This document shows, piece by piece, positions 12,948-63,827 of a stretch of DNA of 64,000 nucleotides. Both the position numbers and the translations under genes were made by a program. Within the stretch, counting starts at the first letter, position 1. Each line of letters starts with the position of its first letter. Origin of the DNA: Desulfitobacterium dehalogenans ATCC 51507 (lineage in GTDB: Bacteria > Bacillota > Desulfitobacteriia > Desulfitobacteriales > Desulfitobacteriaceae); the NCBI RefSeq assembly GCF_000243155.2, contig NC_018017.1:4030001-4094000 (forward strand), in the 5' to 3' direction. The notes under the pieces are model-generated. The model worked only from the letters and a program-made list of their open reading frames with translations, did no database searches and was not told the origin of the DNA.

Positions 12948-13009
12948 AGGCACACCCCTTCTAAAGTGTATACAGCTAATGACACTTATCTGTCAAAGCA
13001 TATTCGCAA

Positions 13010-13216
13010 ATTCAGCAAAAATGCTATCTTTTCCCTTGTATAGCCGTAGGAGGTCTTGCAACCAATATTGTACCGGAGATGGTAGAAATTCATGGGGAAG
13101 CCAGAAGCCACAATCTGTCCGAGCTCCAAGCAATATCAATTGCCCAGGCTGCCATGCGTAAACTTGGCTGGGAACCTGTAGTAACGTCATCAGGCGGTGG
13201 AAGTGATGCAAACTAA
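13010..13216 (+). pseudogene. Remnant of an M20 family peptidase (PepT-like)
   Basis: An open plus-strand frame of about 69 codons, with no usable start, encodes a recognisable C-terminal piece of an M20 metallopeptidase. AVGGLATNIVPEMVEIHGEA matches the dimerisation-domain segment, and GGGSDAN near the end matches the conserved strand before the catalytic domain resumes, where it stops at TAA (13214-13216). Everything on either side of the family is missing. It is therefore a decayed fragment. Confidence 0.65.
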
Positions 13217-13350
13217 AACTGGAGGTCATCGTTTTTGTTTATGTTATATTTTTGAGGGTAATGCCACAGTAAGTTTCTCATGTCTCAACTTCTCCAAAAA
13301 GTTATTTATAAGGTCCTATCACAATATTCGCAAAAAATAGTTTTACCTAC

Positions 13351-13761: not shown

Positions 13762-14110
13762 TGCTTTCTTTCTTCCCCAACCAGCATTTTTAATAGTAGC
13801 TTCAATAGTGTCATGTATACCATACCTTCTCCCCTTCTAACCTTAATAAAAACAGAGACTATTAGCCTATAATAAAATTAGAAACTATAAAATATACCGA
13901 TTATAATTTAATAATATTTGACAAAAAGGAAGGTATTCCTTTAATTTCATCAGTGGCCGTTAACGCAATTCTCCTTTGCGTTTGCCTCTTTAGGCTTATA
14001 TAACCTACATCTGCACAACTGCATCACCGCCTTGCGCAAATTCCCATATTGTGGCAAGTCTTATAGACAAAGCATAAACTGTAGTATCTTCGAGTAAAGG
14101 AGGAATTCAA
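13762..14110. other. 349-bp AT-rich intergenic region
   Basis: It separates the PH-domain gene (minus) from two small-peptide genes (plus) and must hold both promoters. I found no strong sigma-A hexamer pair, hairpin or open frame. A sporulation sigma factor is possible for the peptide genes but no consensus was convincing. Confidence 0.3.
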
Positions 14111-14218
14111 ATGGCACTTGGTTTTGACGGAGTTGAACGTCGTGAAGAGAGATTCGAAGGTATTGCAATCGTAGTTGTAATCATTCTTTTGCTTATCGCA
14201 ATGGGAATCGTGTTCTAG
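14111..14218 (+). CDS. 35-residue single-span membrane peptide
   Basis: ATG at 14111 follows TAAAGGAGGAATTCAA, an excellent ribosome site. The peptide has a charged N-half (GVERREERFEG) and a 16-residue hydrophobic C-terminal helix (IAIVVVIILLLIAMGI). It is in the size class of YjcZ-like sporulation peptides, but the family match is not certain. A second such gene begins 35 bp downstream with its own strong ribosome site, so the two are cotranscribed up to the terminator at 14452. Confidence 0.65.
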   Translation: MALGFDGVERREERFEGIAIVVVIILLLIAMGIVF

Positions 14219-14253
14219 TCTAAGTGCAAAATTTTAAGGAAGGAGGAATATTA

Positions 14254-14439
14254 ATGGGCGGGTTTAGTCATTTTCCTCATATTTCACCGGTCGGTGCTCC
14301 ACCACACATTGGACCAATTGTAACCAGCCGTCCCACTGTCTTCCCTGTCCCCCCAGTTACAGGTGTTGGCGTTGGCGTTGGCGTAGGAATTATCTTTATC
14401 GCAATTCTTATCCTGATTGCTCTTGGTGTAATTTTCTAA
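14254..14439 (+). CDS. 61-residue Pro/Gly/Val-rich membrane peptide
   Basis: The ATG at 14254 is chosen because AAGGAAGGAGG ends 8 bases before it; a GTG 10 codons upstream would overlap that site. The N-terminal 35 residues are rich in His, Pro and Ser (GGFSHFPHISPVGAPPHIGP). A GVGVGVGVG run then leads into a hydrophobic C-terminal helix (IIFIAILILIALGVIF). This layout is common in small coat- or membrane-associated proteins of spore formers. The second gene of a two-gene unit; a strong terminator lies 13 bp after the stop. Confidence 0.65.
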   Translation: MGGFSHFPHISPVGAPPHIGPIVTSRPTVFPVPPVTGVGVGVGVGIIFIAILILIALGVIF

Positions 14440-14451
14440 AACAATCAAAGG

Positions 14452-14480
14452 AAGGCCAGGCGAATTACCCTGGCCTTTTT
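14452..14480 (+). terminator. Terminator after the small-peptide pair
   Basis: Stem AAGGCCAGG / CCTGGCCTT with an 8-base loop, then TTTTTG. Confidence 0.9.
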
Positions 14481-14564
14481 GTTGTCATAAGCGGCTAGTT
14501 AATATTTTACCTAGCCACTTTAAATGGAAAAGAAGGAACAGTAATACGTTTAGGATTAAGGTAG

Positions 14565-14723
14565 ACAGCATGGATAAATAAGCAAAAGGACTTCCTCTTT
14601 TCCGCCAATGAAGAGGAAAAGAAAAAAGTCCTTCAAGAGTATGTTGATCGAATTATTAAACCATCTAAGGATATTAACAGTTTTGACGTAGAGATAACCT
14701 ACAGGGTTTATTTGAGAAGATAG
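14565..14723 (+). pseudogene. C-terminal remnant of a large serine recombinase
   Basis: A frame of 52 codons bounded by stops and lacking a start. It reads ANEEEKKKVLQEYVDRIIKP followed by DVEITYRVYLRR, like the extreme C-terminus of resolvase/invertase-family large serine recombinases (a helix with hhIdkI, then a strand with vEI.yrv). Only this tail survives, so an older integrated element was lost from this spot. Confidence 0.55.
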
Positions 14724-14782
14724 ATTTATTTACGAATTACCTTTCAAATTGTAATAATTTATAGTAGAATTGATTAGGTAAT

Positions 14783-14807
14783 ACCACATACCACATACCA
14801 CATACCA
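14783..14807 (+). repeat. Tandem heptamer ACCACAT, about 3.6 copies
   Basis: Three perfect copies of ACCACAT head to tail, then ACCA. It occupies the region where a -35 box would be for the TATACT at 14809-14814, just upstream of the riboswitch. Confidence 0.85.
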
Positions 14808-14833
14808 TTATACTTAGATATACTTCCTTATAT

Positions 14834-14957
14834 TGCGACAAAGGCAAACTTAGCGAAAGCTGAGGACGCAAAGCTATGGGCCTTCCAGATCATGCTGATG
14901 GTTGCCAAGCTGCCGAAGTCTTCTTTTACTGTCGCTAAATGAATGCGGCTTTTTTTA
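14834..14957 (+). promoter_or_regulatory. Cyclic di-GMP-I (GEMM-I) riboswitch with terminator
   Basis: The aptamer core has the invariant blocks of GEMM-I in order: AAGGCAAAC, GAAA tetraloop, GAGGACGCAAAGC, GGGCCT, GGTTGCCAAGCTGCCG (ends about 14915). Outer bases GCGACA (14835-14840) can pair with TGTCGC (14930-14935). The same TGTCGC can instead pair with GCGGC at 14945-14949, followed by TTTTTTT, forming a terminator. If so, ligand binding would stabilise the outer stem and block termination, making it an ON switch. The 13-base gap before the 3' strand of the outer stem is longer than usual, so the switching model is inference; the aptamer assignment is firm. It precedes the chemoreceptor gene at 15072. 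Confidence 0.88.
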
Positions 14958-15071
14958 TTGTTTTTTCAGTCCTAATTTAGAATAAGTCTTCGGTAATATG
15001 GTCAAGACCATAAAGTAAATGGTCAAGCTCTTCTAGTAGGAACAAATTTTATTATGTGAGGAGGAACTATT

Positions 15072-17033
15072 TTGAAACTCAAGGCACGCTTATTCTCAAT
15101 GCTCTTAGCTACTAGCTTAATTCCACTGTTAATCTTTTCTGCCGTATCCATACCCTCTTTTATCTCAAGCTCCCAACAGAGTTCCTATCAGCTAAGCCAG
15201 GACAAAATAGCAATTGCCAAAGCTGAAATAAACGGGATGTTGGATAAAAATTTCAATACCTTACATATGGTTGCCAATCAACCGGCCATTCGCAATTTCG
15301 ATTTACCTAATGCGAAAAATATTCTGCTGGATGCCGTTAAAGTCAATCCCGAACTTATTATTGCTCTCGACGATACCGAAGGACAACAAGTCGTTAAAAG
15401 TAATGATGATGCCTTAACCAAAATCAATGAGCGAGATTTTTTTAAGCAAGCCATGAACGGTACAGAAGAGTATGTATCCGATATTCTCGTCGCAAAGGCT
15501 ACCGGTGAATTGATTGTCGTGATCTCTACACCTGTTCGTGATATGAATAATAACATTGTCGGGGTTCTTCAAGCGAACATTCAACTCGCTCAGCTCAGTG
15601 ACTTTGTCACAGAGCTTTCAGAAGGTGGTTCAAGCATCTATGTGATTTCCAGACAAGGGACCGTATTGGCCCATCCCCTTATCGAATATGTTCAAAACCA
15701 AGAAGATTTTAGCTCTTTAGAATTTGTGCAAACAGGTTTTACCGGACAGGATATGACTATACAAACGACCAATATTCAAGGTGAAGAGGTTATTGCCAGC
15801 CATACTTTGAACGAACTGACGGGCTGGTTAATCGCTGTGGAAACCCCTGTTTCGGTGGCGATGGCTTCCGCTAATAGACTCCTGTATACCTCAATCGGCT
15901 TGCTCTTAGCTGTGAGCATTGTTGTCGGCTTATTGGGCCTTATCTTTTCAAAACGATTTACCGAGCCACTCGTCCAGTTATCCTCCGTTATCGAAACAAT
16001 TGCGAGCGGAGATTTGACAGACTTTGAAATTAAAATTAAGTCAAAAGATGAAATCGGCCAACTTTATGATAGTCTTAAGACAATGACTCAAAACTTAAGG
16101 GGACTTGTAGTCAACATTCAAGAGGTTGCCTCGACGCTAGCATCTCATTCCTTGCAATTATCGTCAACAACTGAGGAAACCACTCAGAGCTTAACCCAAG
16201 TCGTTACAACTATAAACGAAATGGCTCAAGGCAATAGCAATCAGGCTTTAATGATTCAAGGTTCAACAGATGCGATTAATACGGTTAATAATATCGTCAG
16301 CGAAGCTACGCAAAAAACAGATGTTGGTACAGTCAAGGCCAAAGAATCATTAGAGCTTGCTAAAGCCGGTCAAGAGGCTCTTGAACGCCAAAGTCAAAAA
16401 ATAGAAGAAAACAACAAGTATTCGAATGCTGTTGGTCAATCGATCCTTCAACTGGCCACAATGGCCGATGAGATTCGCAACATGATCAGTGCAATCAACA
16501 GTATCGCCGAACAAACCAATCTGCTTGCATTAAATGCTTCGATTGAAGCAGCCCGTGCTGGTGATGCAGGACGAGGATTTGCCGTCGTAGCCGAAGAAAT
16601 TCGCAAACTCGCTGAACAATCCGGCAGTTCCACCAAGAAAATTGAAGATATTGTCAATGGCATTAATGGTAAGGTGACGGAAGCCGTTAATAATATGAAT
16701 CAGGCTAAAGAAAGCGTTGTTGTTATGGAATCTTCGGCAGAAGATACTAAAGAAAGCTTTGCGAAGATTTTTGCTTCAATTACTGAGCTTGCGCAAAACT
16801 CCTATGAAATTTCCATAGCCTTAGAGGAAATCAATAATCAGACGAAAGAAGTTGCTGACCAAGCCACGAATATTTCCGCAGTGGTTGAACAAGCCTCGGC
16901 TGGTATGCAGGAAATCTCAGCTTCTTCAGAAGAACAATTAGCTTCAATCGAAACGATTGCTCATTCCTCCGGGCAATTAGAAAATGTGGCTCACGAACTC
17001 CTCACTCAAGTTGCGAAGCTTAAAATTGAATAA
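15072..17033 (+). CDS. Methyl-accepting chemotaxis protein with Cache sensor domain
   Basis: 653 residues from TTG at 15072, with GAGGAGGAACTATTT before it. TM1 is at about 7-28 ([20 protein letters not shown]). An extracytoplasmic double-Cache domain follows to about 265, including DVLVAK-like and [19 protein letters not shown] strands. TM2 is at about 273-295, then HAMP ([18 protein letters not shown]) and a long signalling coiled coil with the conserved tip ([37 protein letters not shown]). It should be a membrane receptor for a small external ligand, feeding a CheA pathway. Expression is placed under c-di-GMP control by the riboswitch in its leader, linking motility to the sessile-state signal. 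No other che or fla gene is in the window. Confidence 0.93.
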
Positions 17034-42008: not shown

Positions 42009-42662
42009 TTGCCTACTCAAACCTTTTTCAATCTGCCTGAAGAAAAAAGGAACCGCATCCTTGAGGCTGCCATCCAGGAATTCGCTGCCTATGCATTTGA
42101 CCAGGCGAGTATTGCCCGCATCATTGAGCAAGCAGGGATTCCCCGGGGAAGCTTTTATCAATATTTTAAAAATCTCAAGGATTTGTATAAGTACATTTTT
42201 AACCTTGCTGTAGAAAAGAAGCTCCAGTATTTTGAGGCCAAAGTCCCTGACCTTCATGGCGATGGCTTTGAATTCTTCTCCACATTACAGAGGCTTTTCA
42301 CGGTAGGCCTGGAGTTTGCTCAGGATCATCCTGAGCTTCTGGCCCTTGGTCATCGCTTTATGAAAGAGACCAACGTCCAACTTCGCGAGGAAGTGATGGC
42401 TGAACAAGCCCCTAAATCCACCAATTTTTACGGAAATATGCTCCAGCGAGGCTTTGAATTAGGACAGCTGGACCCTTCCGTGGATTACTCAACCGCAGTT
42501 TTCTTTATGCATGGTATGAATACAGCTTTGACGGACGCTTACCTGCCTTTAGAGCAAAGCAATCTCAATAATGCCCTCGAAGATAAAACCTATCTGGATA
42601 TCATCAATAAGCTTCTCTATCTCCTTGCTCATGGTTTGAAAAATAAGGAGGTGATACCATGA
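42009..42662 (+). CDS. TetR-family repressor of the efflux operon
   Basis: 217 residues from TTG at 42009, chosen for GAAAGGAGAAGG 7-14 bases before it; the frame is open upstream, over the operators. The N-terminal TetR domain is RNRILEAAIQEFAAYAFDQA, then ASIARIIEQAGIPRGSFYQYF. The rest is the helical ligand domain. It should bind the two TGACA-N4-TGTCA dyads just upstream, repress itself and the three following genes, and release on binding a toxic compound. Stop and the ABC start overlap (ATGA). Confidence 0.92.
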   Translation: MPTQTFFNLPEEKRNRILEAAIQEFAAYAFDQASIARIIEQAGIPRGSFYQYFKNLKDLYKYIFNLAVEKKLQYFEAKVPDLHGDGFEFFSTLQRLFTVGLEFAQDHPELLALGHRFMKETNVQLREEVMAEQAPKSTNFYGNMLQRGFELGQLDPSVDYSTAVFFMHGMNTALTDAYLPLEQSNLNNALEDKTYLDIINKLLYLLAHGLKNKEVIP

Positions 42663-43363
42663 CTCTTTTGCTTGAAGGAAAAGGTATCCGCAAGGTTTAT
42701 CAAACCGGAGAGGTTGAATTGGAGGTCCTGAAAGGGCTGGATTTTCAAATCTTCACCGGTGAATTTATCGTAATCCTTGGTCAAAGCGGGTCCGGGAAAA
42801 CCACCCTTCTTAATATCATTGGCGGCATGACTCCTCCCACCTCAGGGGAACTGTATTACCGCGACGAGCCCTTGCATGACGCAGATGATTCGGGACTGAC
42901 CTTTTATCGGCGTCAAGCCGTTGGTTTTGTCTTTCAGCACTACAATTTGATGCCCAATCTTACAGCCTTTGAAAATATTTGGCTGGCCGCCGAAATCGCT
43001 GAAGACCCCCTGTCTGTGGATGAAGTGCTTCAGGATGTGGGACTGGAACCATGGGCAGAACATTTTCCTTCCCAGCTCTCCGGTGGGCAGCAGCAGCGGG
43101 TGGCCATTGCCCGTGCTATTGTTAAAAACCCTGCCTTGCTTCTTTGTGATGAACCTACCGGGGCTTTGGATATTCAAACGGGTATTCAAGTCTTAAAAGC
43201 TTTACAAAAACTCAACCATGATTACCACAAAACCATTATTATCATTACTCATAATGGGGAAATTGCCAAGATGGCTGATCGTGTGTTTTTTATCAAGGAT
43301 GGGATGTTGGAAAAAATCCAAGTTAATGAGCATCCTCTCCAACCGGAGGAACTTTTATGGTAG
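42659..43363 (+). CDS. ABC transporter ATP-binding subunit (MacB/LolD type)
   Basis: 234 residues. Walker [11 protein letters not shown]-loop FQHYNLM, signature [14 protein letters not shown], Walker [13 protein letters not shown] and H in IITHNGE are all present. It belongs to the MacB/LolD/FtsE class, which power mechanotransmission rather than channel transport. It overlaps the permease by 7 bp and the regulator by 4 bp. Confidence 0.94.
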
Positions 43364-45735
43364 TACTGAGAAAGAAGCTGTTCCGGGAGATCCAATCCAA
43401 TAAAGGCGTCTATTTTGCCTGTATTTTGGTGATAATCATCGGGCTTCTCTCTTATACCTCTATGTCCATCGTTTTGGAAAATCTGGAGCGGGCTCAAAGC
43501 AAATTTTATGAGACTACTCATTTTGCCGATGGTTTCATTAAAGTTACCGGCTATCCCGAAAGCCAGGTGAAAAAGCTGGCTCAGTTTGGTGGGATCGATC
43601 ATGGTGAAGGGCGAATCGTCAAGGATGCCCGGCTTTTTGAAGAAAAATCCGATAGCAATCGCTCTCTACGGCTGGTCTCCATGAGCTTCGAGACTCCACC
43701 TGAACTCAATCAGATTCAACTCTTCAGCGGACGCTTTCCCGTGGATAGTTCTTTGGAAATCCTGGTGGATCCAAAGTTTTTCGCTGCCAATGGACTTTCT
43801 CTGGGGGATAACCTAACCCTGATCCTGGAAGGAAAGCGTTCCACCTTTACGGTAGTGGGAACCGCTCAGAGCCCTGAGTTTATCTATGCTTTGCGCTCCG
43901 CTCAGGACCTTTATCCTGACCCGGAGACTTTTGGTATCGCTTATTTGCCCCATAACTCCCTTAAGACTTTAGTCAAGGAATCCGGCCAAGTGAATGACAT
44001 CGTCTTCTCCTTGGAACCCAATGCGAAATTCGAGGATGTTAAAGAACTCCTGGAAACAGAACTTAAACCTTATGGCCTCCAAGGAGTATTCCCTCGTAAG
44101 GATCAGACCAGCCATGCTATCCTCGAAGAGGAGCTGAGTAGTTTACGCAGCATGGCACAAGCTTTGCCCATGGTCTTTCTGGCCGTTTCCAGTATTATTC
44201 TCTATACCATGCTGCGCCGCCTGATTGAACAACAACGGGGAAACATTGGAACCTTAAAGGCTTTCGGTTTTACGAATCAAGAGATCGTCCTTCACTATTT
44301 ATCCTATCCTCTCCTGATTGGAGGGGTAGGAGGATTGCTGGGAGGACTGGCAGGGATCGCTCTTTCTTATCCTTTAACGGCTCTCTATGAAGAGTTCTTC
44401 GCCCTGCCTGGTTTAGAAAGCACCTTTTCTTTAAAGTATCTCTTTTTAGGGATAGCCCTTTCCCTGGGGTTTAGTTTGCTTAGTGGGATGAAAGGGAGTC
44501 TGGACATCCTCCGTTTGGATCCGGCCGAGGCCATGCGTCCTGCGGCCCCGGGCTCGGCAAAGAAAACACCCCTGGAGAAACTGCCCGGACTATGGCGGTC
44601 TTTCACTTCCCAAACCCAAATGGGCATTCGTAATGTTTTTCGTGCCCCTGTACGCAGCGCCTTCACCGTAGTAGGAATGGCTGTCGTCTTTAGCTTAATG
44701 TCCGTTTCCTGGTCCATGGAAAATATGATGGATAAACTCACGACCTTTCAATTCCAGCAGATTCAAACCTATGATGTCAAGATCTCGTTAAATAGCCCTG
44801 TCACCTCACGGTCCCTTCAATACTCATTAGCTCATGAGCCGGGAATCACCAGGCTGGAACCACTTTTAGAAGTCCCGGCTACCCTGCAGAACCAATGGCA
44901 TAAAAAAGAGGTGCCACTCTTAGGTATATCCCAGAATTCTACCCTTTATCATGTTCTCGATCAAAAAGGGAATAAAATCCCCCTACCCGATGATGGAGTT
45001 ATACTCTCAGAACGCTTAGCCCATCTGCTTCAAGTAAAGGTAGGGGACTCCATCCAAGTGAAAAGCCCTTACCGCCGTGAGTTTATTGCCGAGCAAGATC
45101 AAACTCTTATGGTCAGAGGAATCATCCCTCAGTATGTAGGCCTTAATGCTTTTATGGAAATCGATGCGCTCCAGGATTTTCTTCAGCAAGGAGAAATCGC
45201 TACCTCAATGCTCATCGGGATGAATGAGGAGGATGTCTCTGCCTTAAAGAGCAAGTATAGGGATGCCAGTCAAGTGGGTTCCATCGAATCCGCCAAAGAA
45301 AGCTTGGAAAAAATCGAGGAAATGATGGGCTCCTATGGCTTTACCATCTACTTTCTGGCCGTTCTGGCAGGAATCGCCGGTTTTGCATTAATCTATAATT
45401 CCAGTATTATCTCTCTTTCCGAGAGGCAAAGGGAGCTGGCCTCCTTGCGGGTTTTAGGTATGACACCCAAGGAAGTCCTTAAAGTCATTACCTCAGAACA
45501 ATGGCTTTTAACCCTCCTCGGTATTTGCCTAGGGATTCCACTTTCCTTCGCCCTCTCAGAGGCGATGGGACAATCCATGAGCTCGGATCTTTTCACTATT
45601 CCCACAGGAGTTCCTCTTTCAGCTCTTATGGGCGCGGTGGTTGGAACGGCATTGTCCGTATGGTTCGCTCAGACACGAGCTCACCGGAAAATTGTTGCCA
45701 TGCCTTTTGTGGAGGTTCTGGCTACGAAAGAATAA
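43357..45735 (+). CDS. ABC transporter permease with two FtsX domains
   Basis: 792 residues. The N-terminal TM (YFACILVIIIGLLSYTSM) is followed by an extracytoplasmic MacB-like domain, three TM helices forming the first FtsX unit (AQALPMVFLAVSSIILYTML, to about residue 385), then a second TM, a second extracytoplasmic domain and a second FtsX unit (ITRLEPLLEV to the C-terminus, with LRVLGMTPKEV). The double layout suggests that it can act without a second permease. It works with the ATPase and the membrane-fusion protein that follow. Confidence 0.9.
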   Translation: MVVLRKKLFREIQSNKGVYFACILVIIIGLLSYTSMSIVLENLERAQSKFYETTHFADGFIKVTGYPESQVKKLAQFGGIDHGEGRIVKDARLFEEKSDSNRSLRLVSMSFETPPELNQIQLFSGRFPVDSSLEILVDPKFFAANGLSLGDNLTLILEGKRSTFTVVGTAQSPEFIYALRSAQDLYPDPETFGIAYLPHNSLKTLVKESGQVNDIVFSLEPNAKFEDVKELLETELKPYGLQGVFPRKDQTSHAILEEELSSLRSMAQALPMVFLAVSSIILYTMLRRLIEQQRGNIGTLKAFGFTNQEIVLHYLSYPLLIGGVGGLLGGLAGIALSYPLTALYEEFFALPGLESTFSLKYLFLGIALSLGFSLLSGMKGSLDILRLDPAEAMRPAAPGSAKKTPLEKLPGLWRSFTSQTQMGIRNVFRAPVRSAFTVVGMAVVFSLMSVSWSMENMMDKLTTFQFQQIQTYDVKISLNSPVTSRSLQYSLAHEPGITRLEPLLEVPATLQNQWHKKEVPLLGISQNSTLYHVLDQKGNKIPLPDDGVILSERLAHLLQVKVGDSIQVKSPYRREFIAEQDQTLMVRGIIPQYVGLNAFMEIDALQDFLQQGEIATSMLIGMNEEDVSALKSKYRDASQVGSIESAKESLEKIEEMMGSYGFTIYFLAVLAGIAGFALIYNSSIISLSERQRELASLRVLGMTPKEVLKVITSEQWLLTLLGICLGIPLSFALSEAMGQSMSSDLFTIPTGVPLSALMGAVVGTALSVWFAQTRAHRKIVAMPFVEVLATKE

Positions 45736-45792
45736 CACCTGTTTAAGACTCATCAATCCAATGAAATAGACTCTAATTGAGGAGGTATTCTT

Positions 45793-48669
<2,877 letters not shown>

Positions 48670-48811: not shown

Positions 48812-50383
48812 TCATTTCATCAATAGACGCTCATACCGGCTTAAGGCACGAATGGCGGTGAGTGCTGTGGCTATAGGTTCCTCGTAGTCCCACCCCTTAG
48901 CATAGATGGCCTTATAGGAGGGTTTAAAAGAACCCTTGAGATCCTGTGAATCCATAAGATTAATGCAGCCCTTATCCAGCACTTCCTGAGGAACAGCTCT
49001 GCCATATCTCAACAGTCCGGACAGGGCCAACCCCGTCTCAACTGTAGATCCCCAGCCCCCGTCCTCTTGTTGAGACTCCACGATAAAGTTGATGGCTTTT
49101 TGCCTTGCCTCTAAGATATCTCGGGTTATATAGAGCTGTTGCAAATTAAATTTCCACTTACTGAAAAGTTCCAGAGCTTGGGCAGTGCTATAGACTGGCC
49201 CTTCGTACCAGGATGAAGAAAAAGCTCCTTGAGCATCCTGCTGAGATAATAACCACCTTAACCCCCGATAGATGAATTCCTCCTGGGATCGCCCTCGTCT
49301 CCATAAAGCCTCCAGAGCATGAATGGTGACATCAACACTAGAAATATACACAGGAAACTCTGAAGTTATCTGGGGTGGTGTTCCTTCAAAGCTGGGAAAC
49401 GTACTCCAACTTCCATCCTTGTTTTGCAGCCTTTTGAGAAGCTGGACTCCCTGAGAATTTTCTACTCCGACCTGATTGAGGCCGATCAAAGCAACCGCCG
49501 TGTCGTCCAAATCAGGATGAGTATAGGGGGGAGTGCTGCCATAGCTGCCGTCGACATTCTGTGCCTGTTCTAACCAAGAGACTCCCGGCTCCAACCAGGA
49601 GTTATCACCCCACCTATTTCTTGTTTCTCCGGCGATGCAGATTGCCCAACCCATAGCCCAGTTCTTAAGTTGATCAAAGGCCGGCCAAGCTCCATTAGCA
49701 TACTGCTTCTGAATAAGCCAATGCCCGGCTCGCTGGCACTGCTCCTGTTGACCTCCCAAACGCATAATCCCTAGAATAGCCAGGCTGGTAGCGATAATAT
49801 CCTCCGACCAAGAACCGTCCTTCATCTGAGTTTCGAGAAGATATTGAATTCCCTTATTCAGTCCATCCTGGGATTCTGTAGCGAGTAGGGAAGCTGCTAC
49901 CACAACCGGCCGACCATAGAGGGGCAATTTAGCAAGTACACTTTCTTCAAGAATTTTGGGAAGGACGATTTCTTCAGGGGTTGGGCCTTCTAACCCAGGA
50001 ACTACTCGCTGACCCAAGGTCAAAATCATTTGTGAAAACTGCCTGGCTTGGGAGAGCACTTGGAGCTTCGCCATCCATCCCCCTTGGCTCCCCTGTAGGG
50101 CCAGTCGCGCAATCTTCGTTATCTCTTCATCGGGCTGCCCCCCGGGGACCTTCCCCCAGCCTCCACGATTATTCCGCCATAACCACTGAATGCCTCGCTG
50201 TTGAGCACTTCTAAACTCCCGGCCCAAAGCCAGCAGGGCAAGGGATGCTAAGGCCGTTGCCCCAGGGCTGGGAGAGACACCATGATCCTGATCAAGCTTG
50301 CCCGCTAAAATCTGCTCGACCCCTTCGGACACATAAATCTTAGCTTTATCTAAAGATTCACCTAAATTCTTACCAAAATCCAA
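48812..50383 (-). CDS. Squalene-hopene-cyclase-like class II terpene cyclase (short form)
   Basis: 523 residues from TTG at 50383, where GGAGGTGATCGA gives ideal spacing; the ATG at 50401 lies before that site. It is built of alpha/alpha repeats with QW-type motifs (QMKDGSWSED, QNVDGSYGST, QNKDGSWSTF, QQDAQGAFSS, QQEDGGWGST). The catalytic aspartate motif is D291-LDD-TA (DxDD), the general acid of class II cyclases. Squalene-hopene cyclases have about 630 residues and the motif near 375, so this protein lacks about 85-100 residues in front of it. A triterpene or sesquarterpene/diterpene substrate is possible. No prenyl synthase or squalene synthase gene is near. There is no clear membrane-insertion helix. 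It is transcribed alone. Confidence 0.75.
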   Translation of the reverse strand: MDFGKNLGESLDKAKIYVSEGVEQILAGKLDQDHGVSPSPGATALASLALLALGREFRSAQQRGIQWLWRNNRGGWGKVPGGQPDEEITKIARLALQGSQGGWMAKLQVLSQARQFSQMILTLGQRVVPGLEGPTPEEIVLPKILEESVLAKLPLYGRPVVVAASLLATESQDGLNKGIQYLLETQMKDGSWSEDIIATSLAILGIMRLGGQQEQCQRAGHWLIQKQYANGAWPAFDQLKNWAMGWAICIAGETRNRWGDNSWLEPGVSWLEQAQNVDGSYGSTPPYTHPDLDDTAVALIGLNQVGVENSQGVQLLKRLQNKDGSWSTFPSFEGTPPQITSEFPVYISSVDVTIHALEALWRRGRSQEEFIYRGLRWLLSQQDAQGAFSSSWYEGPVYSTAQALELFSKWKFNLQQLYITRDILEARQKAINFIVESQQEDGGWGSTVETGLALSGLLRYGRAVPQEVLDKGCINLMDSQDLKGSFKPSYKAIYAKGWDYEEPIATALTAIRALSRYERLLMK

Positions 50384-50445
50384 TCGATCACCTCCATCCA
50401 TCTCTTTATCCTATGCATAAACATTTTTTTTGTTAGAATAAAAAA

Positions 50446-55069: not shown

Positions 55070-55903
55070 TTAAGTTAACCCTACCCCAGATATAACCATT
55101 GCAGCGTAGAATACATACCTTCCGATCGCCTGGCCAACCAGAATCAAAGCTGTACCGCCGATGACAGCATTGGATACAGATTTGCTTAGTTCATCTTTAG
55201 CCATCCAAAGAACCAACCCAGCTCCAGCGAGGATAAACAGCCATTTAATGGCTGTGGCTGTCTTCAGACTGCCGAGAATAGCAAGGCTGGCTTGCAAAGC
55301 GGTACTGGTGCTGGCCCCCAGAGAAATAAAGTAAGGGACTACAGCAGCGACTTGAACAGCTACAACAGCTGCGACAGCTAAAGCCACGAATTTCTTCATC
55401 TTCCCAGCTTCTTTCATACTCAGAACAAGGAAAAGCATGGCTCCCATGGATAGTGCAGCGGTATAGAACTCAACAGTGGTCGTAGCACTTTGCCATACAG
55501 GCACACTGGCCGAGCTATAAATCTTCGCCATGGCAAAGACATCGATCAGACCCACCAGTGCAGCCGCTGCGGATAAGCCGGTGATAGCTCCTGCTGCTTG
55601 GGGTTTAACATAGAGAAGCACAGCAGCCACAACGGTTAACCCAACAAACATCGCAGTAAACCAAATCTCGCGGCTGAGCCAGGAGGTACCGAATTGAAAC
55701 AGAGCATTCATGGCACTTAAAGGGCGCCCCAAGTGTAGCAGAGAAGCCAACATGCCGATGACGCCAAGGCCTGTCGCCGTGATCATAGCATTCTTGAATA
55801 CCCCTTCTTTATTCACAAGCCGACCAATAGCCACAAAGAGCATAACTCCCACGGCTGCTTGGATACAGATGGAAAACGTGGTCAAGGCAAAATGTTCACC
55901 CAT
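55070..55903 (-). CDS. dmsC: DmsC-like membrane anchor subunit
   Basis: 277 residues with eight hydrophobic helices. The opening EHFALTTFSICIQAAVGVML and LLHLGRPLSAMNALFQFGTSWLSREIW resemble DmsC, whose family anchors the catalytic dimer and takes electrons from menaquinol. The GGGGTG ribosome site lies 7 bases before the ATG, inside the end of dmsB. Last gene of the operon dmsABC. Confidence 0.88.
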   Translation of the reverse strand: MGEHFALTTFSICIQAAVGVMLFVAIGRLVNKEGVFKNAMITATGLGVIGMLASLLHLGRPLSAMNALFQFGTSWLSREIWFTAMFVGLTVVAAVLLYVKPQAAGAITGLSAAAALVGLIDVFAMAKIYSSASVPVWQSATTTVEFYTAALSMGAMLFLVLSMKEAGKMKKFVALAVAAVVAVQVAAVVPYFISLGASTSTALQASLAILGSLKTATAIKWLFILAGAGLVLWMAKDELSKSVSNAVIGGTALILVGQAIGRYVFYAAMVISGVGLT

Positions 55904-55906
55904 GGA

Positions 55907-56485
55907 TTACACCCCCACTTTCTTATAACCGGGCTTTAGGGCTTCGGCTTTGGGTTTGATTAAGAAGGAGGGATCGGTTTTGGTGGCCGAAGGAAGAATG
56001 GGTAACTCCTTGACCAGATCCTCCCCGTATTCTGCTTTCATTTGGTCTAAATCTCCAAATTTCAAACAACGCATAATACATGCATCCACACAAACGGGGT
56101 TCTGTCCAGCATCTCTTAATTCTTTACAGGAATCACACTTTCCTACGACATTTTTGTCTTCGAAGTAATGAGGTACACTATATGGACAGTTCCAAACACA
56201 ATATTTGCAGCCGATACATAGTTCTTTATCATGTTGAACTGTACCATCTTTATCAAAGTGCATGGCCCCCGTAGGACAGCCTTTAACACATTTAGCTTCT
56301 GCACAATGATTACACCCCATGGAAAGGTAATAGCCCCCTACATTGGGATAGGTACCACCTTCAAATTCATAGACTTTGCGGAATAGTTCCCCTACTTTGA
56401 GATCATTCCTATCTTTACAGGCAATTTGACAGGCTTTGCATCCCATACAAGAAGCCATATCATAATAAAATCCTAATTGTCCCAT
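55907..56485 (-). CDS. dmsB: DmsB-like 4Fe-4S electron-transfer subunit
   Basis: 192 residues with four ferredoxin-like cysteine groups: CMGCKACQIAC, CNHCAEAKCVKGCP, CIGCKYCVWNCP and CDSCKEL...CVDAC. This is the 16-Cys pattern of DmsB/PsrB/NrfC subunits carrying four clusters between anchor and catalytic subunit. No twin-arginine signal, so it is carried with DmsA. AGGAGGTGACACCTG precedes the ATG. Confidence 0.92.
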   Translation of the reverse strand: MGQLGFYYDMASCMGCKACQIACKDRNDLKVGELFRKVYEFEGGTYPNVGGYYLSMGCNHCAEAKCVKGCPTGAMHFDKDGTVQHDKELCIGCKYCVWNCPYSVPHYFEDKNVVGKCDSCKELRDAGQNPVCVDACIMRCLKFGDLDQMKAEYGEDLVKELPILPSATKTDPSFLIKPKAEALKPGYKKVGV

Positions 56486-56498
56486 CAGGTGTCACCTC

Positions 56499-59108
56499 CT
56501 AAAATATAATTCTTTGCGCCCACTGTGCATCCGGTTTTAATGGTTCACCAGCGTATTTCTCAACTCTAACAATAGTAGTATTCCAAGGCTCTTCCCCTTG
56601 TCCGCTTAACCGGGCTCCGCAAAGAACGTTTGTTGCACCTGCTTTATCAATTCCTTTTTCCTCATCCATTTCTACCCAAGCACCTTCTCCTAAGGTTACC
56701 ACACCCGGCATCAATGTCTCTGAGAGGGTCAGGGGACGAATGCATTTGCCATATTCACTCTCAATTAAAACGGTATCCCCATCTTTAAGGCCAAGTGCTT
56801 CCCCATCTCTTGTGTTCATCACAAAGTCCTGAGGATAGGCTTCTCTCAACTGAGGAATGTTATCGAATACTGAGTGGGAACGTCTTCCATAGTGTATGGT
56901 AACGAGCTGGAAGGGGTATTTGCCTTTCTTTTTGCTTTGCCAATCTTCGAAAGTATCTTCATAGCCATCCAGCGGTGGTTCATACATGGCGATTGGCGGG
57001 ACCGTGGTCAAACCATAAGATGCAATCTTATCAGAGAGAGGTTGGCAGTGGATTTCCAGCTTACCGCTTTTGGTTGTGAGCGGATTAGCGGCAGGATCTT
57101 TAACAAAATCTTCCCCTTGAATCACAGTTAAGCTATCACCGGCAGTTCTCTCTACTTGGTAAACACCCTGCGCCATCAAGTCATTCAAGGCGATCTTTCC
57201 TAGTTGCGGTTTACCCTGAACTCCCCATTCTTGAATGTCTTTTTCCGTAATAGTTACCAGACTCTCGTAGGTCTCCCCGTCCCCACCAATCACTTCAGCT
57301 CCTGCGAGACTGTTAAAGAATTGCTGTTTCTCAGTGATCGGATAAATTTCATCCGGATTCAGCCCGAGGCGTTTTGCTAGTTCACGATCCATCCACTCTT
57401 CTGTTTTTGCCTCATAAAGGGGTTCCGTCACTTTTTGGTTAATAAAGATAGCTTCTGGATTTCCTTGATAAATCTTCCCTTCTTTTTCCCACTCTGTGGT
57501 TGCTGGGAGAACAATATCAGCATATTTGGAGATACTTGAGAGAACAGTATCATTGGTCACTACAAAATCCACTTTGCGGAATGCTTCAATTCCCTTATGG
57601 ATTCCAGAGGATTGGTTGAGGAAATTATATCCGCTGCCGTCCCGAACCAACCAAATCAAACGAATATCGCAAGGAACTTTCCCTCTACCTCCCGTTCCGG
57701 TATATTCGCCCTTTAATATAGCATCATAGGTTTCACAATAAGCCATTCCATTGGCATCGGGGTTGGTTGGGTTTGCCCATCGGTAGCCATCATATGCTCC
57801 GTATGTGGCATCCGGGAATAACGGATTGACGGCCGGGGGAAGGCCCCTGCCTCCGCCTTTGACAAGAGTTTTGCCACCGTATCCTTGATTTGCCGCATAG
57901 TTCATAGTCCATACTCCGGAACCTGGCTTTCCTACGTTTCCAGTCATCCAGCCGACTGTTAAAAATGCTTGGCAGAATTGCTGGCCTCTATAGGTGCGGG
58001 CAGGCGCAAAAGATGAGTTGAAAATAACCGGTTTTGTTGTGGCAACTTCAGTCGCGAACTCTCTAATCAGTTGCGGATCCGTTCCGCAGATTTTTGAAGC
58101 CCATTCAGGAGTTTTGGGAACCCCGTCATAAGTGCCTAAAACATAATCTTTGAAATTCTCTTTGGGATCTGCCCCCTCAGGCATATGATCTTTATCAAAT
58201 CCTACAGTACACCGATCAAGGAAATCCTGATCCTGCAGATTGTGTTCAATCATGTGATAGGCCATTCCTAAAAGCAGTGCAGTATCTGTGCCTGGTCGGC
58301 AAGGTATATATTTATCAGCTAAGGTCTTTACTGAGGGTGATACTTGCGGATCAACAAAAATAAACTTTGCTCCGGCCTTTTTTGCCTGCAATAAATTGTA
58401 GGTGGGATTGCCCAGGTTGGATCGGGCAGGATTAGCTCCCCACATAACAATCAGTTTAGCATTTCTCCAGTCAGGTCTGTCGTTGGCTTTCCACGAGAAG
58501 AAGCCTGTCATGCATTCTTGAACCACACCCCACGCACCCGATGAAGAAGAACCCCATCTTACAAGGCCTCCGCCGTAGAAATTCAGCAGTCTGCTTGTTC
58601 CAAGAATGGATTTATTTCCATGCTCTTCCTTAATCCGCTTTAACTCAGCAGCGACAAGATCCAAGGCTTCATCCCAAGAAATACGTACCCATTCGTCTTT
58701 TCCCCGTAGCTCCTTGTTGCCGCCGCCAGGCTCCCAATGCTTACGCTTCATCGGATATTTAATTCGATCCGCCCCAAATACTTGATGTCTTTGGGAACGC
58801 CCCCGGTGACAACCTCTTTGCTGCGGATAATCAGGAGAGTCTGGATGTGTATCATCTGTTTTTTGTCTGACGACAACTCCATCAACTACATAGGCTTTGT
58901 TTAAGCACCGTCCCCCACAGTTATGCCAACAACCTGCGGTAATCCATTCACCCTCGTTGTTAGCTATTGCTGCGTCGGCTCCGGCTTTGGTCAGTGTATT
59001 ACTGCTGCAGCCTGGCAACGTCAAGCTCGCTGCACCAATAGCACTGGCTTTTAGAAAATTCCTGCGGTTAATTTTATGATTGACAATACCCTCAAGAATG
59101 TTTCCCAT
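56499..59108 (-). CDS. dmsA: DmsA-like molybdopterin oxidoreductase, catalytic subunit
   Basis: 869 residues from ATG at 59108 (AAAGGAGGAAGG 6 bases before it; the frame is open 12 codons more). A twin-arginine signal is present (NRRNFLKASAIGAASLTLPG). The 4Fe-4S site reads GCWHNCGGRC with the fourth Cys in RGCHRGR. Segments DEWVRISWDEALDLVA and LIVMWGANPARSN, the MTGNVGKPG and ATTEWEKEG blocks and the C-terminal DGDTVLIES fit the DMSO-reductase family. It reduces an external acceptor with menaquinol electrons; substrate could be DMSO, TMAO or another oxyanion or organic. Desulfitobacteria hold many paralogues, so the substrate cannot be fixed. dmsB follows 13 bp later. Confidence 0.9.
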   Translation of the reverse strand: MGNILEGIVNHKINRRNFLKASAIGAASLTLPGCSSNTLTKAGADAAIANNEGEWITAGCWHNCGGRCLNKAYVVDGVVVRQKTDDTHPDSPDYPQQRGCHRGRSQRHQVFGADRIKYPMKRKHWEPGGGNKELRGKDEWVRISWDEALDLVAAELKRIKEEHGNKSILGTSRLLNFYGGGLVRWGSSSSGAWGVVQECMTGFFSWKANDRPDWRNAKLIVMWGANPARSNLGNPTYNLLQAKKAGAKFIFVDPQVSPSVKTLADKYIPCRPGTDTALLLGMAYHMIEHNLQDQDFLDRCTVGFDKDHMPEGADPKENFKDYVLGTYDGVPKTPEWASKICGTDPQLIREFATEVATTKPVIFNSSFAPARTYRGQQFCQAFLTVGWMTGNVGKPGSGVWTMNYAANQGYGGKTLVKGGGRGLPPAVNPLFPDATYGAYDGYRWANPTNPDANGMAYCETYDAILKGEYTGTGGRGKVPCDIRLIWLVRDGSGYNFLNQSSGIHKGIEAFRKVDFVVTNDTVLSSISKYADIVLPATTEWEKEGKIYQGNPEAIFINQKVTEPLYEAKTEEWMDRELAKRLGLNPDEIYPITEKQQFFNSLAGAEVIGGDGETYESLVTITEKDIQEWGVQGKPQLGKIALNDLMAQGVYQVERTAGDSLTVIQGEDFVKDPAANPLTTKSGKLEIHCQPLSDKIASYGLTTVPPIAMYEPPLDGYEDTFEDWQSKKKGKYPFQLVTIHYGRRSHSVFDNIPQLREAYPQDFVMNTRDGEALGLKDGDTVLIESEYGKCIRPLTLSETLMPGVVTLGEGAWVEMDEEKGIDKAGATNVLCGARLSGQGEEPWNTTIVRVEKYAGEPLKPDAQWAQRIIF

Positions 59109-59202
59109 ACAGCACCTTCCTCCTTTACTTTCATACAAGTTCATTGTGGTAAATCATAGCAACTATAAGAAAATATTATTACTCCTTGTATAAAGTCTAA
59201 CA

Positions 59203-59334: not shown

Positions 59335-59370
59335 AATAACCGCCTCCTCGTCAGGGTTTGCGGTTATCTC
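59335..59370 (-). terminator. Hairpin after telA
   Basis: Stem ATAACCGC / GCGGTTAT with a long loop; T-run short (TTATTT). Lies 31 bp past the telA stop. Confidence 0.5.
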
Positions 59371-59400: not shown

Positions 59401-60510
59401 TTACTGTCTTATAGATATCAATGTCTGTTTAAGTTCAGATTCTATCGAAGCCAGCTCCGACTCAGCGGCCAATCTTTCCTCTTTGCCCTTTCTTTGAATG
59501 TCCAGCACGCCGCTAATGGTTTCTATTAAATCCTGATTGACCTTTTTTATGGTTTCTATGGATACAATTCCTCTTTCGCTTTCCTTAGCCACACCCAGAG
59601 TGCCTGCTTTAAGAATTTCGGAGTTTTTCTTCAAAAGATCGTTGGTCATGTCCGTAACCTTGGTCTGCGCTTCAAGGGCGGCCTTGGCATTGGCCAGACC
59701 GAGAGATAGAACCATCTGGTTTTTCCACAGAGGTATGGAATTGACGATAGATGACTGTATTTTGTCAGCCAGCTGAGCATCGTTGTTTTGAATCAGGCGG
59801 ATCTGCGGTCCCATCTGCAGGGATATCTGACGGCTGAGCTGCAGGTCATAGACCTTCTTTTCAAAGCGGTTTACCGCATTGGCCAAATCATTCAGCTTTT
59901 GCGCCTCTGCCTCATCCCCTGATTGGGCAACCCGCTCTCTGAGTGCAGGCAGCACTTTTTCATTCATTTCCTTAATTTTTTCTTTGCCCGCCACGATATA
60001 CATGGTCAGCTCTTTAAAGTACACCAGATTCGTTTTATACATTTCATCGTACATGACAATGTCCTTAAGCATAGTATGACGGTGAGCCTGCAGCATGTTA
60101 CTTATCTTGTCAATGTTGACTTCCACATCGCTGTAGCGTGCAATCAGCCTGTCAATTTCCGTTTTGGCCTTTCCGAACAGATTGCCTAAAAAGCCCTTGC
60201 TCTCACCGGTGGCATCAAAGTTCTTTATGGTTACGACCAAATCGGTAAGCAGCTTGCCCGCCTCACCCGAATCCTTTGTTTTAACATTTGCCAGGGTGTC
60301 GTCCGCAAATTTTGCCAGCTTTGTCTGGGCACCGGAACCATAGGTAACGATGGAGTTGCTGTCCGTAATATCGATTTTATCCACAAATTCCAAAACCAGC
60401 TTTTGCTCCTCAGTCGTTAAGGAAGCCAGGCTGACGCCGCCAGGCTCATCCTTGATTTTCGCCGGTGATGCTTGTACCTCGTTGCCGAAGTCTAATTTTA
60501 TCTCTTCCAT
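59401..60510 (-). CDS. telA: TelA-family (toxic anion resistance) protein
   Basis: 369 residues from ATG at 60510; an ATG at 60534 lacks a ribosome site, while AAAGGGGC lies 13 bases before this one. TelA/KlaA proteins are helical cytoplasmic proteins. Recognisable segments are IKNFDATGESKGFLGNLFGKAK, HRHTMLKDIVMYDEMYKTN and FEKKVYDLQLSRQISLQMGPQIRLIQ with NAKAALEAQTKVTDMTNDLL. It is genetically linked to tellurite resistance and to envelope stress; mechanism unknown. It is last in the operon with XpaC and two binding-protein-like partners. Confidence 0.92.
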   Translation of the reverse strand: MEEIKLDFGNEVQASPAKIKDEPGGVSLASLTTEEQKLVLEFVDKIDITDSNSIVTYGSGAQTKLAKFADDTLANVKTKDSGEAGKLLTDLVVTIKNFDATGESKGFLGNLFGKAKTEIDRLIARYSDVEVNIDKISNMLQAHRHTMLKDIVMYDEMYKTNLVYFKELTMYIVAGKEKIKEMNEKVLPALRERVAQSGDEAEAQKLNDLANAVNRFEKKVYDLQLSRQISLQMGPQIRLIQNNDAQLADKIQSSIVNSIPLWKNQMVLSLGLANAKAALEAQTKVTDMTNDLLKKNSEILKAGTLGVAKESERGIVSIETIKKVNQDLIETISGVLDIQRKGKEERLAAESELASIESELKQTLISIRQ

Positions 60511-60537
60511 TTTTATCCCAAGCCCCTTTCTCATCGA

Positions 60538-61638
60538 TTAATTTTTGAGAGCCTCAATGATCTTATCGTAAATCTCTTTTTGCAATCCCTTGGTTACCGA
60601 AGTTATTTCCTGGGGGATTCCCTGTACAGGCACTGCTTTAACGTCATATTCCCCTCCGACCACACCGGTTCTGAAGCCGTATTTTTCCCAAGCTATTTTT
60701 TGAATTTCCGGATCAGCCAAGGCGTCCACATAGGCTGTGCCGCCCTCCGTAAAGCTCATGATGCAATGAGAGTTCCATAGGGTTGGACTGGGATACAGTA
60801 CCCTTATTTTATCTTTTACCTTGGCAAAGCCATCAGGATTTTTATTGGCAAAATCAATAATGGATTTTTCATAGTCAACGATCATGGGATAAGCACCCTT
60901 CCCCATTCTGAGATACAGGTCAAACAGGTCGGCGGGAGTATTGTTCATAAAGCCCGAAAGCTTGTAAAAGCTCTTGAGCTTGGGAAGAACCTTGTTGATA
61001 TTGCTTTCATCCACATACCCCTCGTTCATAATCGAGGCCAGCAGACCGTAGTAAGTTGCACCGGGCGAAGAGGTTACCGGGTCTGTGCTGGCAATATTAA
61101 TCTTGCCGTAAATATCCCCTATGCCTATATCCGACCATTTGGTATTCTTTTCGATATAGGACAGTACGGCGGGCATATCGGCAATATAATAAGTATCTCC
61201 GGACTGTTTAACGATGCCTTTGGACACGAGTACATCGCAGATGCTGTCCCAGCTGTAGACCACGATGGGCGTGGATAAGGTGATCTGGGATTTAAAGGTC
61301 TTCAGCCTTGGCGCTTCGCCGTCTGCGGCGGGCTTTTTATAGTATTCGTAAAATCTTTCGTCGCTGAAAAAAACAAAGTCATAGCCTTTATTGTCCTTGG
61401 TTGCGAGTGTGTCCTTAATGAGGGCGTTGTTGCTCCAATTGTCAACCTTCAGGTTGATATTGTATTTGTCATGTAAAATTCCCAGAATTTCCGGGTCCGC
61501 CAGAAAATTCTCTTTACCTCCGCCTACCGCTCCGGTAACAGTTATTGCCGTATCCTTCGGCTCAGCCATGGATGAAGCGGCGATTCCGATGACGATCACT
61601 ACGATAAAAGCAACGACGGCGGTCAATACTTTTTTCAT
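60538..61638 (-). CDS. Membrane-anchored periplasmic-binding-type protein
   Basis: 366 residues. An N-terminal hydrophobic anchor or signal (LTAVVAFIVVIVIGIAASSM) has no lipobox Cys. A type 2 binding-protein fold follows: TVTGAVGGGKENFLADPEI, DFVFFSDERFYEYY, KINIASTDPVTSSPGATYYG, with IVDYEKSIIDFA near 255. The last features resemble the N-terminal half of the vWA protein encoded at the start of this operon. Its ribosome site (GGAGGAGG) is inside the last Gly codons of xpaC. Ligand unknown. No ABC permease or ATPase lies nearby, so transport is unlikely to be its job. Confidence 0.8.
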   Translation of the reverse strand: MKKVLTAVVAFIVVIVIGIAASSMAEPKDTAITVTGAVGGGKENFLADPEILGILHDKYNINLKVDNWSNNALIKDTLATKDNKGYDFVFFSDERFYEYYKKPAADGEAPRLKTFKSQITLSTPIVVYSWDSICDVLVSKGIVKQSGDTYYIADMPAVLSYIEKNTKWSDIGIGDIYGKINIASTDPVTSSPGATYYGLLASIMNEGYVDESNINKVLPKLKSFYKLSGFMNNTPADLFDLYLRMGKGAYPMIVDYEKSIIDFANKNPDGFAKVKDKIRVLYPSPTLWNSHCIMSFTEGGTAYVDALADPEIQKIAWEKYGFRTGVVGGEYDVKAVPVQGIPQEITSVTKGLQKEIYDKIIEALKN

Positions 61639-62274
61639 TTATGAACCTCCTCCCATAAAATCCTTATTGTCCATAAGTCCTTCTGATTTAAATACAGCCG
61701 CCATGGCAGCCATTTCGGCCTTGCTGTCCAGCACATCCTTGGAAAACAGGCTGTAATACTTTTTGTCGAAAGCATCCGTTATTTGCGGCAAAAAAAGGGA
61801 AAACTGCCCGGCAAATTTCTGTGCTTCCTCTGTTTTAAATGAGCCCTCGGCCAAATTCTCATAAGTATTTAAAATATTCATCAGCCCCGGCAGATAATAT
61901 AAGGAAAAGTCATTCAGCTTCGTGTATAGAGAATGGTCCTCCTCCAGGGCCTCAGCTATTTTCAAACAGGTTTTATGGATTGAGGACAACATGACCAGGA
62001 TGTCCTTCTCCACGTTCAGCCTCTTCAATTGATCCATATACCGGGCCATGGCAGAGCTGTGATCCATAATCCCTTGATGAACCTTACCATAGGCATCATC
62101 ATCACCCTTTAAATCAATCCTTACTTTCTTTTCCTTTTCCAGAGCCTTTATTGTCAGCACAACGATTCCCAGGCAGGCTGCACTGCTTAAGGCGGATATC
62201 AATAGATTGCCGCCGATCAGCCAGACTACAAGGAATGCTGCTGCCGCTGCAACACCAAGGAATATTTCTTTCAT
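61639..62274 (-). CDS. XpaC-like membrane protein
   Basis: 211 residues with two N-terminal TM helices (IFLGVAAAAAFLVVWLIGG, LLISALSSAACLGIVVLTI) and a helical cytoplasmic domain (AYGKVHQGIMDHSSAMARYM to the end). This matches the XpaC family, named for 5-bromo-4-chloroindolyl phosphate hydrolysis, which is usually found next to telA. Enzymatic activity of the family is doubtful. It ends GGGS, whose codons provide the ribosome site for the next gene. A soluble-binding-protein gene is inserted between xpaC and telA. Confidence 0.8.
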   Translation of the reverse strand: MKEIFLGVAAAAAFLVVWLIGGNLLISALSSAACLGIVVLTIKALEKEKKVRIDLKGDDDAYGKVHQGIMDHSSAMARYMDQLKRLNVEKDILVMLSSIHKTCLKIAEALEEDHSLYTKLNDFSLYYLPGLMNILNTYENLAEGSFKTEEAQKFAGQFSLFLPQITDAFDKKYYSLFSKDVLDSKAEMAAMAAVFKSEGLMDNKDFMGGGS

Positions 62275-62285
62275 AGCAATCTCCT

Positions 62286-63827
62286 CTAATTATATGCTCT
62301 TATCTCCTTAAAGGCGTTAATAAGGTCTGTTCTGCCATCAAAAGTCTTGCCCCTTGTCAGCCTGCTGATTTCATCCAGCTGTTTCGGATTGGCCTTTCCG
62401 AACATAATTGAAAATACGGGGGTATCGTAGGCTGTACCAGGACTGAACCTGCCCCCTGATTCACCGTCGGTCATCAGGACGATAGATTTGGTATAGGTTT
62501 CGGAATCAAAATCATTTAATATCTTAATGGCACGTTCCACCGGTCTGTATATATCTGTTCCGCCCCCTGTTCCGGTATCCTTTATCCTGGAAATCAAGGT
62601 TCTAGTATCCGTGCCGGAGTGAGTTGAATCAACCCATTTGAGATCAGCGGCAAAGGGAATGACAACTATTTCATCATTTTCGGAAAACTGGATCATATCC
62701 TCTGCTGCCAGCTCATGATTCAGTATCCGCTCCATGGCCGCTACAAGCTGCTTATTGCCCTCGCCGTACATACTGCCTGAATAGTCAAGGCAGAATACTA
62801 CCGCAGAGGGCTTTCTGAATAAATCCTGGTAAAGGGTCAAGGCCATTTTAAGCACAGGACTCGCTGGATATTTAATAGGGGACAAATAAGCGTTCTTATC
62901 AATCCCGTAGGATTCCTTAAACACCTCAACGTTGGATACCAGGCCTCCGTAGGTGGTTCTTCTCCCCAACCCTTCAAGCTTTTGCTGGGTATCCGCAGAT
63001 AATAAGAAGTCCTGCAGCTTATTAAAAGTCTCCAGTTTCTCACTGTCATTATTGTCTATATAGGCAAATGGGCTGTCCGAAACAGAGACTCCGTCAGAGG
63101 GATAGATAAACAGCAAAGGTTCTTTATTGCTTTCGATAAGCTGTTTGTTCAGCTCGATAAGGGACGATTCGTAGTTTACCAGGGCATCGTAGTCCCCTTC
63201 CCTGAATATGTCTATTAAGTACTCATCACTGCCGGAATTCCTCGCCACTCCTTTAAACAGCTTCTTTAAGCTTTCCTGAAGAGCCGGTGATGTTAAGTCT
63301 TCTTCTGTCAACACCGGAGGATTACCCGCCAGGCTGTTTAAGAAACCTATGTAAGCCGATGCTCCGCTGTTTGTTTGCGTGACTGAGGGCATCAGAAACT
63401 TTAACTTTCCTACTTCAACCGCCTTCACCAAGTCATTGACAACGGTATCCCTGCTAAATCCCAAGGCTTTATATCTGCTTTCCTTTACCGCAAAGATTAC
63501 GGGGTTAACGGATATGGATTTTGAGTTTTTTAATACTGAGCTTGGGATAGACGCGTTCCATATGCTGTTTGAGGACCATACAGCATCATAATCCTGAGGC
63601 GATGATTTGATCATGGCAGGAATATTTAGAGAGCCCGTATACTCAAATCTCAATTCTATTTTATTTCTTTGGGCAAATTCAGTAAGCATTGGCTCTAAAT
63701 CCTTATTTTCACTACTTGACAAAATAGTGAATCCACCTGTTTCCCCCTTCCCGGAAGAACAGGCGCACAGAGAAAACAATAAAGCTGCCAACAAAAAGAC
63801 AACCGCTATTTTTCTGTACAAAACCAT
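62286..63827 (-). CDS. Lipoprotein with binding-protein and vWA domains
   Basis: 513 residues from ATG at 63827; starts up to 18 codons earlier are possible. A signal peptide ends in a lipobox-like SLCAC. Residues about 25-310 are a type 2 binding-protein fold (GFTILSSSENKDLEPMLTEF, DAVWSSNSIW, MPSVTQTNSGASAYIGFLNS, DALVNYESSLIEL). Residues about 340-513 are a von Willebrand A domain with a full MIDAS: DYSGS, a Thr in the GGGTDIYRP turn and MTDGES. Anchored outside the membrane it may bind a ligand or a partner protein in a metal-dependent way. First gene of the vWA-xpaC-SBP-telA operon. Confidence 0.85.
   Translation of the reverse strand: MVLYRKIAVVFLLAALLFSLCACSSGKGETGGFTILSSSENKDLEPMLTEFAQRNKIELRFEYTGSLNIPAMIKSSPQDYDAVWSSNSIWNASIPSSVLKNSKSISVNPVIFAVKESRYKALGFSRDTVVNDLVKAVEVGKLKFLMPSVTQTNSGASAYIGFLNSLAGNPPVLTEEDLTSPALQESLKKLFKGVARNSGSDEYLIDIFREGDYDALVNYESSLIELNKQLIESNKEPLLFIYPSDGVSVSDSPFAYIDNNDSEKLETFNKLQDFLLSADTQQKLEGLGRRTTYGGLVSNVEVFKESYGIDKNAYLSPIKYPASPVLKMALTLYQDLFRKPSAVVFCLDYSGSMYGEGNKQLVAAMERILNHELAAEDMIQFSENDEIVVIPFAADLKWVDSTHSGTDTRTLISRIKDTGTGGGTDIYRPVERAIKILNDFDSETYTKSIVLMTDGESGGRFSPGTAYDTPVFSIMFGKANPKQLDEISRLTRGKTFDGRTDLINAFKEIRAYN

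Follow-up and report, generated by a model that had tools for sequence, protein, structure and literature searches.

Genes for an XpaC-like hairpin protein and for TelA are found together in one operon in Bacillota, as in the pairs xpaC-yaaN of B. subtilis, llmg_1115-telA1 of L. lactis and lmo1966-lmo1967 of Listeria. Disruption of lmo1967, which encodes TelA, causes sensitivity to nisin and tellurite (PMC12791056). The xpaC-telA1 genes are induced along with CesSR genes (PMC3139573), and xpaC is upregulated in a liaR mutant (PMC10269926). TelA also occurs together with a vWA protein, TerF, in the Ter systems (PMC7824862). In the HptASR system of Staphylococcus, the substrate-binding protein (SBP) HptA serves as the sensor for the kinase HptS (PMC8774646).

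The locus described here shares features with each of these systems. Like the Bacillota pairs, it encodes an XpaC-like hairpin protein and TelA, but those pairs lack SBP and SBP-vWA genes, while here the gene for a binding protein, SBP2, lies between XpaC and TelA. Like the Ter systems, it combines TelA with a vWA domain, but this domain is fused to an SBP on an extracellular lipoprotein (SBPvWA), and the operon contains no TerB, TerD or TerC. With HptASR it has in common the SBP fold (SBPvWA matches 6lkg with Z 22.1) and, as proposed below, sensing without an ABC importer; however, none of the four operon genes encodes a histidine kinase, and the candidate partners are XpaC and TelA instead. 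The annotation name “Substrate-binding and VWA domain-containing protein” denotes an architecture identical to that of SBPvWA, but it is merely a name. No description of the four-gene module was found in the searchable papers, a scope that excludes most subscription journals. The parts belong to known families or folds, and their four-part combination seems to be undescribed in the literature searched.

The window, meaning the whole 64,000-nucleotide stretch that was analysed, corresponds to positions 4030001-4094000 of the complete 4,321,753-base genome of Desulfitobacterium dehalogenans ATCC 51507. The module occupies window positions 59401-63827 and is transcribed from the minus strand, with SBPvWA first, followed by XpaC, SBP2 and TelA:

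62286..63827, minus strand: SBPvWA, a lipoprotein with a type-II SBP domain and a C-terminal vWA domain (Pfam, invariant residues, AF2, PDB fold matches)
61639..62274, minus strand: XpaC-like membrane protein (PF10112 match, hydropathy)
60538..61638, minus strand: SBP2, membrane-anchored, with an SBP fold (AF2 model, PDB fold match)
59401..60534, minus strand: TelA family protein (PF05816 match)
59336..59367, minus strand: inverted repeat ATAACCGC / GCGGTTAT with a 16-nt loop, directly past telA, spotted by eye

The listed open reading frames are separated by 11, 0 and 3 nt, which makes the operon nearly gapless. SBPvWA probably starts at the ATG at 63827 rather than at the TTG at 63881, and translation of TelA probably starts at the ATG at 60510. 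The inverted repeat is a weak terminator candidate and does not appear in the hairpin scan listing, for which the loop limit was 8. Directly downstream (55070-59144), the sequence reads as an operon for a DMSO-reductase-like molybdoenzyme, with a membrane anchor, a ferredoxin-type subunit and a catalytic subunit with a Tat-like leader. Further away (48812-50401), a gene encodes a protein of 529 aa in which Pfam recognises squalene-hopene-cyclase-like repeats. No ABC importer lies beside the module in the window or in locus L002; the nearest ABC genes in the window (42659-47121) form an exporter-type set of ATPase, FtsX-like permease (our own assignment) and HlyD.

SBPvWA matches the Pfam families SBP_bac_11 (67.8 bits) and VWA_2 (41.7 bits). 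Counting residues from the ATG at 63827, it has an LCAC lipobox whose Cys23 is invariant among the homologues aligned, a type-II SBP domain at about residues 32-292, and a vWA domain with a complete MIDAS (D348-S350-S352, T424, D454) that is invariant in 24 homologue rows. Its AF2 model has a pLDDT of 81.4. In comparisons with PDB folds, the SBP part reaches Z 23.7 (rmsd 3.2, 280 aligned), and the vWA part reaches Z 21.5 to ITIH4.

SBP2 carries an N-terminal transmembrane anchor (residues 2-24, a helix in the AF2 model) and no lipobox. It gave no sequence match in Pfam, NCBIfam or the PDB, and none of 27 homologues matches Pfam; it represents a family without a Pfam model. PDB sequence searches with the SBP2 and TelA profiles likewise returned nothing credible. 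The AF2 model (pLDDT 81.8) nevertheless has a type-II SBP fold, with Z 22.0 to ferric-binding proteins in the PDB (rmsd 3.1, 276 aligned). In profile alignment by hhalign, SBP2 matches the SBP part of SBPvWA with a probability of 99.1% (E 4e-19), which shows the two to be paralogues. The SBP2 of one genome (G151) gives good scores with the profiles of both families, as expected if a duplication gave rise to both binding proteins. For both models the nearest folds are ferric-, sulfate- and sugar-phosphate-binding proteins, and these matches establish the fold, not the ligand. The fold singles out no ligand, as its neighbours include binders of iron, of sulfate, of thiamin and of sugar phosphates. 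Invariant residues of both proteins cluster at the strand-to-helix loops that form the cleft (P 0.004 and 2e-6, rough values because the loops were picked by the analyst from predicted secondary structure).

The XpaC-like protein matches PF10112 with 43.8 bits (curated cut-off 29.8) and has two N-terminal transmembrane segments by hydropathy (4-22 and 24-42), followed by a helical domain that is presumably cytoplasmic. At this position of the module, a PF10112 match is found in 2 of 27 rows. Outside Bacillota, profile-profile comparison with disjoint rows gives a weak match (probability 51%, E 1.6e-4), and a profile built from Desulfitobacterium alone gives a probability of just 8%. Outside Bacillota the identity of this fourth gene as XpaC is recognisable only weakly. 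TelA matches the PF05816 profile over its full length (397 bits, 2-331/332), and 16 of 16 TelA rows of the module also match this family. It has no transmembrane segment and is the sole TelA in the genome. Half of the Bacillota loci with a PF10112 match (9 of 18) also have TelA within about 1.5 kb. A sequence-only reading of this DNA had proposed an operon of an SBP-vWA lipoprotein, XpaC, a second and related binding protein and TelA, with a complete MIDAS and no ABC transporter, and it is borne out on each of these points.

The four-gene module is widespread and conserved, and is not peculiar to this genome, although it is rare in Bacillota. Loci were collected by a protein search of plasmid records and a scan of named genomes (best 80 of 325 SBP2 relatives). 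In 86 distinct loci, every module gene found is co-directional, and 76 have all four genes on a single strand in either of two orders; most of the 86 are from Actinomycetota, so the loci are not independent. The four-gene loci are distributed over Actinomycetota, Chloroflexota, Dormibacterota, Pseudomonadota and Bacillota-like genomes. The order SBP2-TelA-SBPvWA-XpaC is found in 75 loci, two of which have one additional copy at an end, while one locus (L006) has the order of the window. One order becomes the other when the gene pairs SBPvWA-XpaC and SBP2-TelA change places, and these look like two functional pairs. Plasmid records with the module come from Sphaerotilus, Variovorax and Nonomuraea, and also from Deinococcus, but there without an adjacent TelA.

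The two binding proteins also occur together across genomes. Among 398 Bacillota genomes, SBP2 and SBPvWA (full-length or contig-cut, E below 1e-80) were found in the same 3. Of 296 Actinomycetota genomes, 10 have SBP2, and the 8 genomes that have full-length SBPvWA (E below 1e-100) all belong to those 10 (hypergeometric P 3e-14, or 1e-12 without the centre genome; the figures take no account of kinship, and the genomes are not independent). A few genomes (L083; G493, G678) have SBP2 but no SBPvWA, and more distant SBP-vWA proteins occur without SBP2 in 13 actinobacterial genomes. TelA is missing at six loci, and two of the five such genomes searched have no TelA gene at all. TelA is therefore not obligatory, since SBP2-SBPvWA-XpaC can be present while TelA is absent genome-wide. 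Desulfitobacterium genomes without the module (G004, G005) also lack TelA. Within Actinomycetota, the gene trees track host families, which suggests largely vertical descent.

Additional copies and local differences were observed in individual genomes. In a close relative (G003), a second SBPvWA-XpaC pair lies upstream of the module (L129, 9985-12238), and its SBPvWA is split into two open reading frames of 391 and 140 aa, with the break inside the vWA domain. In the same locus, a gene for an ABC1/UbiB-type atypical kinase lies downstream of telA (3292-4803), which is not so in the window genome. In one actinobacterial genome (G571; L162/L163), another SBP2-SBPvWA cluster, which has diverged, is present in addition to the main one.

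The 110 genes flanking 30 dissimilar loci, of which those in GC-rich loci were called heuristically, match 137 Pfam families, none of them in more than 3. No conserved fifth gene was found among these immediate neighbours, and no ABC importer family in at least 2 of them. The absence of a recurring neighbour family indicates that the module consists of just four genes. The sequence-only reading had named a link to a distant ABC transporter and an unconserved gene order as evidence against its proposal. Gene order proved to be conserved across phyla and no importer recurs among the 110 neighbours, so this check did not refute the proposal.

Taken together, the module probably forms a complex at the cell surface that senses or protects, and probably does not serve in taking up nutrients. 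The specific reading that we prefer, at a probability of roughly 0.45, is a transporter-less, membrane-spanning complex for sensing or protection, driven by a ligand and giving tolerance through a TelA/XpaC scaffold. Both SBP domains would bind small ligands in their clefts, and the nearest folds would be compatible with anions or metal-anion ligands. Ligand occupancy would alter a metal-dependent contact of the MIDAS, most simply between SBPvWA and SBP2, or with an envelope partner. The state of the MIDAS could then be relayed by the SBP2 transmembrane helix and the XpaC hairpin to the scaffold beneath the membrane, which would make the cell more tolerant of toxic anions or of antimicrobials that act on the envelope. 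The data above show anatomy, conservation and folds; complex formation, ligand and direction of the signal are what we infer in this scheme.

This sensing complex is favoured by the co-conservation of four genes, the co-occurrence of SBPvWA with SBP2, and the lack of an importer or fifth gene. It is also favoured by the invariant residues at the cleft loops, the invariant MIDAS, and gene pairs that swap as units, with SBPvWA-XpaC duplicated as a pair in the close relative. The step from anatomy to function leans on the phenotypes of XpaC and TelA in other bacteria, where their genes take part in envelope-stress responses (PMC12791056, PMC3139573, PMC10269926), and on HptA, which resembles both SBPs in structure and shows that an SBP can act as a sensor (PMC8774646). 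Counted against it are that TelA is not obligatory, that a few genomes have SBP2 but no SBPvWA, that XpaC homology is weak outside Bacillota, and that the transmembrane parts, as simple anchors, would hardly accommodate an intricate relay. The sequence-only interpretation is supported in part. Its surface sensing or assembly complex stands as the best reading, while the putative link through XpaC to cytoplasmic TelA is drawn from topology and gene pairing.

An assembly platform, or one for metal or anion delivery, is a less probable explanation. Here the SBP domains would serve for docking or delivery and so assist in folding, loading or placing envelope proteins, the vWA MIDAS would contact the client, and XpaC and TelA would form a membrane scaffold. 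Bacterial proteins with a vWA domain frequently act in the assembly of complexes, ferric- and sulfate-binding proteins are among the nearest folds of both SBPs, and 11-13 related actinobacterial loci have genes within 10 kb that we read as an EfeUOB-like iron system. However, no client gene is conserved beside the module among the 110 neighbours.

More doubtful still is a Ter-type exclusion or defence module, in which a sub-membrane structure would block entry of phage, bacteriocin or plasmid. TelA and the vWA protein TerF have been proposed to form sub-membrane structures in phage-resisting Ter systems (PMC7824862), and on the Variovorax plasmid (L010, 5293-20609) flotillin/OB-fold genes flank the module on one side and Wadjet genes, JetA and those after it, on the other. 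In contrast, PADLOC gave no match for the four module proteins, the window genome has no TerD and its TerC genes are more than 1.2 Mb from the module, and descent within Actinomycetota is largely vertical. A defence island was likewise rejected, as PADLOC hits occur only sporadically among the neighbours (1-2 of the 110 for each) and no defence family recurs. Mobile or phage cargo was rejected too: the sole IMG/VR contig (L006/L091) carries the module outside the integrase, most simply as host flank, and the remaining viral scans did not add another contig. In L091, genes for an integrase, an ImmA-like protein, a repressor and ORF6N/ORF6C antirepressors (11846-16961) adjoin the module, which seems to belong to the host and to lie beyond the prophage.

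Ordinary uptake, in which the SBPs would serve an importer or transporter encoded elsewhere and be merely co-operonic with xpaC-telA, is the least probable: SBP_bac_11 proteins are usually partners of ABC importers and the genome encodes others, but SBPvWA includes a MIDAS domain, a transmembrane anchor holds SBP2 in place, importer families do not recur beside the 30 dissimilar loci, and the SBPs accompany TelA and an XpaC-like gene across phyla.

It is conceivable, though unlikely, that the module represents a new class of bacterial transmembrane sensing, in which paired SBPs, one with a MIDAS, directly gate a TelA/XpaC scaffold without a kinase or transporter. TelA and XpaC are old and widespread families that have been tied to tellurite and antimicrobial tolerance without a known mechanism. 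The module provides them with dedicated extracellular ligand-binding partners, and therefore the ligand of SBP2 and SBPvWA would reveal the stimulus of TelA.
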